This document shows positions 52,037 through 54,930 of a stretch of DNA of 64,000 nucleotides, one piece after another (position 1 is the stretch's first letter; the number at the start of each line of letters is the position of its first letter). Source of the DNA: an uncultured Bacteroidota bacterium (GTDB taxonomy: Bacteria; Bacteroidota; Bacteroidia; UKL13-3); the NCBI GenBank assembly GCA_903910445.1, contig CAIVZR010000028.1, positions 1-64,000 on the forward strand. The letters are read 5' to 3'. The position numbers and the translations under genes are program-made. Below the pieces are notes generated by a model that was not told the origin of the DNA, did not search any database, and was given only the letters and a program-made list of their open reading frames with translations.

Positions 52037-52969
52037 TTAGATAGGGTAATTTTTAAGCTGTTTTTCAACCTCTGAAAGCTGTTCAGAAAGAGAGTCATTT
52101 CCATTTATCCAGTGGATATGATTCCCTTCACGTTCCATTTTCCTGAACCAGGTCATTTGTCGTTTTGAGTATTGTAAGATGGCAGTTTGCAATCGGTCAA
52201 TGGTGGTAGGTAAATCAAATTTCCCAGTAAGGTAACTTGTAATAAAAGTGTATTCTAGTCCTAGAAAATGCAGCCTTTCAGAGCTTATTCCATCATTCAA
52301 AAGTGAAGCCACTTCTTCTATCAAACCTTCATCAATTCGAGTCATCAAGCGTTGTTGAATTCTTATTTTACGTTCGGAAGCCGAAAGCCGGATACCAAAT
52401 AGGATGGGTTGAAGGCTTGGGTAAGGAATTGGCACAGCCTCCTGTTTGCTTAAGAAATCGGCAATCTCTATGGCTCTGACGGTGCGCTTCACCGTGGAGA
52501 TATCAGCTTGTTCGGTATTCTTTGCAACGTATGATTGCAAAAAAGAAATTAATTGCTCATGGCTCTTATCTAGTAGTTCAGTTCTTAATATTTCATTATT
52601 GGGAATATTAATATACTGGTGTTTTTTCAATGCGAGATCAAAGTATAAACCAGTGCCGCCTGCCAGAATAGGCAATTGTTTTTTAGTTTCACATTCATTA
52701 AATGCCGAAATATAGCTTTGAATAAAATCATAGCTATGAAAATGAGTTTCTATATTGCATAAATCAATAAGGTAATATGGAATTTGCTTGTCATTGAGTT
52801 GATATTCGTTAAGGTCTTTGCCCGTACCAATATTGAGTTTTTTATACACCTGACGTGAATCAAAGCTAAGTATTGCACTGTTAATACGATCGGCGATATT
52901 TACCGCCAATCGTGTTTTTCCTGATGCTGTGGGTCCTAGAACAATAATACAGTTCGGCTTTGTCGTCAT
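52037..52969 (-). CDS. miaA: tRNA dimethylallyltransferase
   Basis: 310 residues. P-loop VLGPTASGKTRLA, DSRQVYKKLNIGTGK, AGGTGLYFDL and the C-terminal YSKRQMTWFRK with nearby R/K residues identify MiaA, which adds dimethylallyl to A37 of tRNAs reading UNN codons. The second motif has the DSRQVY form rather than DSMQVYRGM. The start codon overlaps the preceding gene by four bases, suggesting coupling to the acyltransferase-like gene. Confidence 0.93.
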   Translation of the reverse strand: MTTKPNCIIVLGPTASGKTRLAVNIADRINSAILSFDSRQVYKKLNIGTGKDLNEYQLNDKQIPYYLIDLCNIETHFHSYDFIQSYISAFNECETKKQLPILAGGTGLYFDLALKKHQYINIPNNEILRTELLDKSHEQLISFLQSYVAKNTEQADISTVKRTVRAIEIADFLSKQEAVPIPYPSLQPILFGIRLSASERKIRIQQRLMTRIDEGLIEEVASLLNDGISSERLHFLGLEYTFITSYLTGKFDLPTTIDRLQTAILQYSKRQMTWFRKMEREGNHIHWINGNDSLSEQLSEVEKQLKNYPI

Positions 52970-53682
52970 TCGTATTTAATTAGTTTGTAATTCCCCTTAT
53001 TCCAATATTCGATAGTGGCATTGGCGGATGTAATTAAAGTGCAAGAAATGGGAGTTGTTATTGAATCGAGCACAAAACCAAGCGCGTAATAGGCATGCGG
53101 TTCGCCCCAACTAATATCGATATAGGTCATAATATCGCCAGGAGATTGAAAGTTCTCAAAATGCCTGATGAGTTTACTTAACCCACCGACTACAGTGAAA
53201 TCATTTTTACTACAAAAACGAATGAGCTCATAAGATTTTTTACCTTCTTCCAGTCTTCGCATTTGACGTCCTTTACTAAAACATGCAATGGCAACCAATT
53301 CCTCTTTAAGAAATAACCCAAAATGATAATAGCAATTAGCATAACCCATAATATGATTTGTGTTTACAAATTGCTGTGCTATTGGTTTACTTATCCGAGC
53401 GATGCTGCATTGACGCGCGTGTATTCGCTGGGTAATACCTAATATGGAACAAAGCCGAGATTGAGAAGCCTCCAAACGCTGATACCATAATGTTTCTATA
53501 AAATAGAACCGATAGGGTAAGCTGGCCATTTTCGATACAGCATTATTGGTAAGGAAGCAAATCGACTTCTTCATCTCGTCATGATATAGCACCGAAAAAT
53601 CGGGATGTATCTCCCAAGAGGCCCCAGGCCATCGTGTAGCCACAAAAGCACTTACCTCTTTTAGGAATGATTCCAATTTCAT
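52966..53682 (-). CDS. Acyltransferase-like protein (Mom/GNAT-like pattern), unknown function
   Basis: 238 residues, no signal or membrane segment. The stretch ~110-190 (FVNTNHIMGYANCYYHFGLF, LVAIACFSKGRQMRRL, SYELIRFCSKNDFTVVGGLSKLIRHF) has the rhythm of GNAT-type acyltransferases, and most recalls the Mom-like proteins that modify DNA bases or phage-encoded relatives (H-x-x-x-x-x-YGLF ... EL-x-RFC ... VVGG-x-SKL). This is a weak, remembered similarity; the protein could equally be an uncharacterised nuclease-associated domain. It is translationally coupled to miaA, so a nucleic-acid modification role is attractive but unproven. Confidence 0.55.
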   Translation of the reverse strand: MKLESFLKEVSAFVATRWPGASWEIHPDFSVLYHDEMKKSICFLTNNAVSKMASLPYRFYFIETLWYQRLEASQSRLCSILGITQRIHARQCSIARISKPIAQQFVNTNHIMGYANCYYHFGLFLKEELVAIACFSKGRQMRRLEEGKKSYELIRFCSKNDFTVVGGLSKLIRHFENFQSPGDIMTYIDISWGEPHAYYALGFVLDSITTPISCTLITSANATIEYWNKGNYKLIKYE

Positions 53683-53775: not shown

Positions 53776-54930
53776 ATGACTTTTAAAGATTTTCTAACGC
53801 CTTTGAATGCGGAGGATTTTGGTGCTACTGTTGGTTCAGTAAATGCGTATCATAATCAGATAATGAAGTATGTCGATGAATTTCCCGACCTCGAGGAAAT
53901 TGATATTGTACTTTTAGGAGTGAATGAATTACGTAATCGAGATAACCAACACTTAGCTCCTGGAATTAGTTATTCGGCTGATGCTTTAAGGCGACAATTT
54001 TATAAGTTATACAAAGGGAATTATCAGGTTAAAATTGCGGATATTGGAAATATTGAAGCGGCGAATAGTTTTAGTGATACCGCCTATGCGGTGCAAGAAA
54101 CGGTGAAGCAATTATTGGAGATGAAGAAAACCGTAATTCTTTTTGGCACCCATCAGGAACTGATAGCTTCACACTACAAGGGATTTGAGTCGACCACCAA
54201 AGCATTGAATTTAGTAGTACTTGATGCCTATTTGAATTTAAGTGAACTTGAAAATGAAGAGAGCTATCTCACCCAAATTATCAAACACACTCCTGAATAT
54301 TTGTTCAATGTGAGCCATGTAGGAAGTCAGATGTATTTGAATGAACCAGGTGCAATTAACCTCATGGATGCGATGTTATTTGATGTATGCAGATTGGGTA
54401 TTGTTCGAAAAAATTTGGCCGATGCAGAGCCCTTTTTTAGGAATGCCGATATGGTATGCCTGAATGCATCTGGAATAAAGCAAAGCGATTTTCCTGCTCA
54501 GCTTAATGGAAGTGCCAATGGATTATTGAGCGAAGAAGCATGTGCTCTGTTGCGTTTTGCCGGTTTGGGTGGTTCGGTAAGAAGCTTAGGAATCTATGAT
54601 TATATAAGTGATTTGGATAGTGGGGAGCAAAGCTCAAAATTGGCAGCTCAAATGTTATGGCATTTTATCGATGGATTTTATCATCGTGTGGAAGAAAATC
54701 CACTTGTTAACGAAAATGATTTTATTCGTTATCGAGTTCCCTATCATGATGATCAGAGCAACGAGATGATATTTTATAAGAGCACCATTACAGAGCGCTG
54801 GTTTATGGAGGTAACTTCCAATTTCCATAAGAATTCTTTTATGCTTCCTTGCTCTTACAGCGACTATCAGATGGCTGTTAATGGTGATATCCCCGATCGA
54901 TGGATGAAAGCCACTCAGAAACTCATGTAA
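53776..54930 (+). CDS. Arginase-fold protein lacking most metal ligands (pseudoenzyme)
   Basis: 384 residues of the ureohydrolase (arginase/agmatinase/formimidoylglutamase) fold: VLLGVNELRNRDNQ at the N-terminus, central beta strands and the terminal DYISDLDSGEQSSKLAAQM. The metal-binding motifs are degraded. GGDHS is FGTHQ (124-127), keeping only His; DAHxD is DAYLN (150-154), keeping only the first Asp; and SFDxDxxDP is CLNASGIKQ (228-236), with both Asp lost. At most two of six manganese ligands remain, so no arginase activity is expected. As I recall, such degenerate homologues lie near topA and gliding/T9SS genes in other Bacteroidota; here the neighbours are miaA and menA. Confidence 0.85.
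   Translation: MTFKDFLTPLNAEDFGATVGSVNAYHNQIMKYVDEFPDLEEIDIVLLGVNELRNRDNQHLAPGISYSADALRRQFYKLYKGNYQVKIADIGNIEAANSFSDTAYAVQETVKQLLEMKKTVILFGTHQELIASHYKGFESTTKALNLVVLDAYLNLSELENEESYLTQIIKHTPEYLFNVSHVGSQMYLNEPGAINLMDAMLFDVCRLGIVRKNLADAEPFFRNADMVCLNASGIKQSDFPAQLNGSANGLLSEEACALLRFAGLGGSVRSLGIYDYISDLDSGEQSSKLAAQMLWHFIDGFYHRVEENPLVNENDFIRYRVPYHDDQSNEMIFYKSTITERWFMEVTSNFHKNSFMLPCSYSDYQMAVNGDIPDRWMKATQKLM

Follow-up and report, generated by a model that had tools for sequence, protein, structure and literature searches.

This locus raises the question of whether a protein related to the arginase-type hydrolases can have lost the metal site needed for hydrolysis and still be kept by selection, and, if so, what it is kept for. 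The gene is situated in a 64,000-nucleotide stretch of DNA (hereafter the window) and was originally predicted to code for an arginase-fold pseudoenzyme. As stated in that prediction, the open reading frame (53776-54930, plus strand) is long, intact and not frameshifted, and it contains all three motifs quoted there, namely FGTHQ, DAYLN and CLNASGIKQ. No signal peptide-like or membrane segment was found in the product, which is best read as a soluble, cytoplasmic protein, and no RNA element was found near the gene. The features of the protein, hereafter the pseudo-formimidoylglutamase, are listed in Table 1.

Table 1 Features of the pseudo-formimidoylglutamase gene (window coordinates; ligand columns in rat arginase I numbering).
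Feature	Position	Strand	Basis or remark
Complete ORF, pseudo-formimidoylglutamase, protein P0001	53776..54930	+	384 aa; single copy in its genome
HutG/arginase-like body, residues 41-306	53896..54693	+	PDB and profile-profile comparison
Conserved C-terminal domain, residues 310-384	54703..54927	+	Not in HutG, Pfam or PDB; this protein only
Q127, column of ligand His101	54154..54156	+	Alignment
D150, column of ligand Asp124, sole ligand kept	54223..54225	+	Alignment
Y152, column of ligand His126	54229..54231	+	Alignment
N154, column of ligand Asp128	54235..54237	+	Alignment
N230, column of ligand Asp232	54463..54465	+	Alignment
S232, column of ligand Asp234	54469..54471	+	Alignment
D275, column of substrate-pocket Glu (Glu277-type); always E in canonical HutG	54598..54600	+	Alignment

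Profile comparison shows homology between formimidoylglutamase (HutG) and the body of the protein (residues ~41-306). When the family profile was aligned with that of 17 canonical HutG proteins, hhalign gave a probability of 100 and an E-value of 2.4e-50 over 305 columns, with the alignment ending near residue 306, and the wide family profile matched the formimidoylglutamase structure PDB 3m1r with an E-value of 9.4e-16. Both matches indicate common fold ancestry with the arginase/ureohydrolase superfamily (PF00491). The window protein by itself has no Pfam match and does not reach the PF00491 gathering threshold, and the AlphaFold model built from it and three close relatives has a mean pLDDT of 40.6 and was not used for a fold search, so the fold assignment rests on sequence profiles; PF00491 is matched by 23 of 30 relatives at E-values of up to 1. 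The predicted arginase fold over 384 residues therefore stands as to the fold but not as to its extent, since residues ~310-384 form a separate domain. Automated annotation as a formimidoylglutamase had been expected as well, which is not what the databases return: the NCBIfam HutG model TIGR01227 gives the protein 40.4 bits against a curated cut-off of 229, and Pfam gives nothing.

The C-terminal domain is recognized by the motif FYKS..T.RWWMEVP...PCSY.DY..A...E.P.RW, with F333, W342, C359, D363, Y364 and A367 being near-invariant. None of its matches in Pfam or the PDB was significant, and in the 29 genomes searched it was present once per carrier genome and always in the pseudo-formimidoylglutamase, with the sole exception of a borderline hit (E 0.0096) in a frame unrelated to it.

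The metal-ligand columns (His101, Asp124, His126, Asp128, Asp232 and Asp234) were read from an ungapped family alignment. The window protein does not possess the binuclear six-ligand site, as five of the six ligands are lost and D150 alone is retained. Four losses had been counted originally, H126 evidently having been taken for the ligand histidine; the segment ILFGTHQEL aligns with IIIGGTQDL and IVLGGGHDI, which places Q127 in the ligand column and H126 one residue earlier. The ligands are kept in canonical HutG of other classes and in HutG paralogues of the same class, a few of which have Asn in the His101 column. The first His ligand is replaced by Asn (GGGND/GGSND) in six otherwise canonical HutG proteins (L100, L102, L105, L117, L118 and L119), so a residue other than His at this position alone is no proof of inactivity.

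Relatives of the protein are widespread in a whole class of Bacteroidota. The family profile matches 69 of the 73 sampled class genomes, some of the matches being weak or partial, while a wider profile matches 57 of 77 genomes picked to span families (one match is weak). In one order, 56 of the 79 genomes have a strong match to this wider profile, scoring above 150 bits. Among 91 class sequences from outside the window's family, the Asp124 and Asp232 columns are occupied by Asp in every sequence and the Asp128 column in 85, the His101 column contains Q in 72 and H in 15, His is missing from the His126 column in 87, and the Asp234 column is never Asp. The commonest pattern is Q/H-D-x-D-D-S, and 67 of the 91 sequences retain the three Asp together with the pocket Glu. 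Judging by these columns, the second metal site is lost throughout the set, and most of these relatives, keeping three Asp and a Gln or His, could still bind a single metal or a small ligand of the amidine type. In two more divergent clades (f4 and f6) most of the site has disappeared, in each by its own route, the ligand alignment being less sure there. The tree, a quick one in which some branches are long, places all the pseudoenzymes in one clade (SH-aLRT 99) apart from canonical HutG, same-class HutG paralogues included, and so gives the pseudo-formimidoylglutamases a single origin. No member of this clade has an intact binuclear site, and a lineage-specific loss from intact orthologues is rejected.

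In the window's own family the gene was found in 58 of 64 genomes and is single-copy in 43 of the 45 good ones. None of the 30 aligned orthologues has an intact ligand set: D150 is invariant, every one of them has Ser or Asn in the Asp232 column, and the Glu277 column is never Glu. Because this family has lost the remnant site as well, the conserved function would require no metal. Within the genus dN amounts to 0.136-0.181, with the saturation of synonymous sites precluding an exact dN/dS, so dN was used along with one LWL85 value (omega 0.09 for one window pair). The dN of the pseudo-formimidoylglutamase is below that of most neighbouring genes, with menA, recF and miaA (names read from sequence) evolving faster. 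The window's family is under strong purifying selection. The protein combines loss of the catalytic residues with conservation under selection, as expected of a pseudoenzyme of the arginase superfamily, and the original proposal of a non-catalytic role, likely on these grounds, holds up well: the loss of the intact site is common to all 30 aligned orthologues of the family, the clade is monophyletic and selection shows no sign of relaxation. It is thus very probable that the protein is a conserved non-ureohydrolase.

As to what the protein does instead, gene order suggests a link to the type IX secretion system (T9SS). T9SS/gliding proteins had been named as possible partners, and this hint proved to be a good one, the gene being a frequent neighbour of porP-gldKLMN. 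In an unselected order-level sample containing 56 carriers, 34 have it 3.0-4.8 kb upstream of gldL and in the same orientation, the chance of such adjacency being about 0.0007 per genome. All 14 inspected loci, which were chosen as adjacent, have the order topA-gene-porP-gldK-gldL-gldM-gldN, and in another clade the order is topA-gene-gldKLMN, without porP. The topA-gene-porP-gldKLMN neighbourhood is apparently ancestral. This association with T9SS core genes is found in relatives but not in the window's own genome, where the gene stands alone between opposite-strand genes (neighbour names, e.g. miaA and menA, were read from sequence), topA and the T9SS genes are both missing from its immediate surroundings, and porP-porP-gldKLMN is located on another contig; the window's copy has left the locus. 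The two porP genes of this genome are arranged in tandem just upstream of gldK, and there are two copies of gldM on different contigs (G000:C14, locus L202, and G000:C4:1053-2573). Close to the pseudo-formimidoylglutamase gene, at 52966-53682 on the minus strand, there is also a fast-evolving gene coding for a 238-aa protein, GNAT-type acetyltransferase-like by eye, which overlaps the miaA start.

The gene is present in 108 of 138 gldL-positive genomes versus 2 of 11 gldL-negative ones (one-sided Fisher test, 1e-4, with related genomes counted and several of the gldL-negative genomes being small). Several gldL-positive lineages (f11, f12 and others) do not have it. The near-complete genome G525 possesses neither gldL nor gldM, yet it carries an intact copy (L195, G525:C32) whose ligand columns read H-D-K-D-D-S and which lies apart from both topA and the T9SS genes. 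No link between an arginase-like or formimidoylglutamase gene and gldK or the T9SS was found in the open-licence literature, an earlier mention elsewhere being possible.

Since topA is part of the same neighbourhood, the protein might work with DNA topoisomerase I or in another topA-linked housekeeping process, in which case the T9SS adjacency would be incidental. The distance from the topA stop to the gene start is often only -4 to 20 bp, a spacing suggestive of translational coupling, and the gap to porP or gldK is 70-460 bp, so the gene may be co-transcribed with topA instead of the secretion genes; in clade f4, moreover, it stays near topA with no gld genes close by. On the other hand, in clade f6 the gene adjoins gldJ, porP and porU without topA, and in the window it adjoins neither topA nor the T9SS genes. 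Every bacterium should possess topA, but the pseudo-formimidoylglutamase gene is absent from 9 of the 11 gldL-negative genomes. We consider this explanation unlikely, though still a serious rival.

The protein could also be a ligand sensor or an inactive partner subunit of a metabolic enzyme, having no tie to the T9SS. There is a precedent in MetCb, a metal-free partner of the arginase family which is needed by its active subunit (PMC11271267), and 67 of the 91 class members retain the three Asp and the pocket Glu. Candidate partners exist in the window's genome, which contains two further members of the arginase family, an agmatinase gene and an arginase-like gene scoring slightly below its cut-off. 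However, both of them are located on other contigs than the pseudo-formimidoylglutamase, and the genes conserved beside the latter are topA and those of the T9SS, with no metabolic genes among them, which makes a sensor or subunit of this kind quite improbable.

Another possibility is that the protein remains catalytic through a mechanism using one metal or none, being for instance a different hydrolase or lyase acting on amidine compounds. The Asp124, Asp128 and Asp232 columns, often with Glu277, are kept across most of the class and could hold one metal. In addition, no canonical HutG was found in a search of the window's own genome, although urocanate hydratase (hutU, G000:C68:9140-10756, L201) is present, which leaves the formiminoglutamate step without an assigned gene. 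This step could, however, be carried out by formiminotransferase (FtcD), and in the window's family even Asp232 is replaced by Ser or Asn in all aligned orthologues and Glu277 is gone, so retained catalysis appears very unlikely. The neighbours of hutU are ruvA, a sugar nucleotidyltransferase gene and a gene for a T9SS cargo protein, with no other hut genes. Finally, a decaying gene leaving this lineage is hardly conceivable and the pseudogene reading is rejected, for although fewer ligands survive in the window's genus than in most of the remaining class, the frame is intact in one copy in nearly all relatives, its dN is lower than that of most neighbours, purifying selection is evident and the C-terminal motif is conserved.

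The reading we prefer is that the protein is a non-hydrolytic descendant of formimidoylglutamase which would act in the cytoplasm as a binding protein, its partner belonging to the T9SS/gliding machine. The T9SS-linked role taken separately falls slightly short of an even chance, and for the combined reading, a conserved non-hydrolytic cytoplasmic HutG descendant with a T9SS/gliding partner-binding role, the chances are about equal either way. The cytoplasmic domain of PorL/GldL is a known docking site of the cytoplasmic regulator PorX (PMC5005315, PMC10951265), and for this reason that domain of GldL, a subunit of the motor, would be the natural candidate partner; the pocket might have a sensing function. 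Tentatively, and with more doubt than confidence, one may go further and suggest that throughout the class the T9SS/gliding motor has an unrecognized cytoplasmic part or regulator, derived from a captured HutG whose pocket was turned to sensing a metal or metabolite and later became purely structural, with the new C-terminal domain docking on the motor. If that were so, cell metabolism could gate secretion and gliding.

With its apparently ancestral position between topA and the T9SS core genes and a domain that occurs only here, the gene is a concrete candidate, and one simple to delete, for a part or regulator that has been overlooked in the T9SS, which drives gliding and virulence. Its product is also a look-alike of a histidine-degradation enzyme that is spread across much of the class and, by its sequence, should be incapable of that reaction, which means that pathways predicted for these bacteria may be in error. 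In a Mariniflexile genome paper the histidine pathway was described as missing except for formiminoglutamase (PMC11278836), which is possibly this pseudoenzyme, misread. Besides, the metals are lost by degrees, two giving way to perhaps one and then to none, which offers a natural series for studying how an enzyme becomes a non-enzyme.

Compared with known systems, the protein shares with HutG (TIGR01227; PDB 3m1r) common ancestry and the fold over residues 41-306, and differs from it in lacking five of the six metal ligands and the pocket Glu and in having the extra C-terminal domain. MetCb of the metformin hydrolase MetCa/MetCb (PMC11271267) is likewise a prokaryotic member of the arginase superfamily which has a role without a metal centre; it pairs, however, with an active paralogue from its own gene cluster, whereas the conserved neighbours of the pseudo-formimidoylglutamase are topA and T9SS genes, and the protein has a new C-terminal domain. 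Other arginase-like proteins without the binuclear centre, from both eukaryotes and prokaryotes, are, as far as their description in PMC11271267 goes, similar in having the same fold, and their function is mostly unknown. PorX probably has a different fold from the pseudo-formimidoylglutamase, and the two are alike in another respect: PorX is a cytoplasmic factor able to bind the motor subunit PorL/GldL, and the pseudo-formimidoylglutamase is, on the best reading, cytoplasmic and associated with the T9SS locus.
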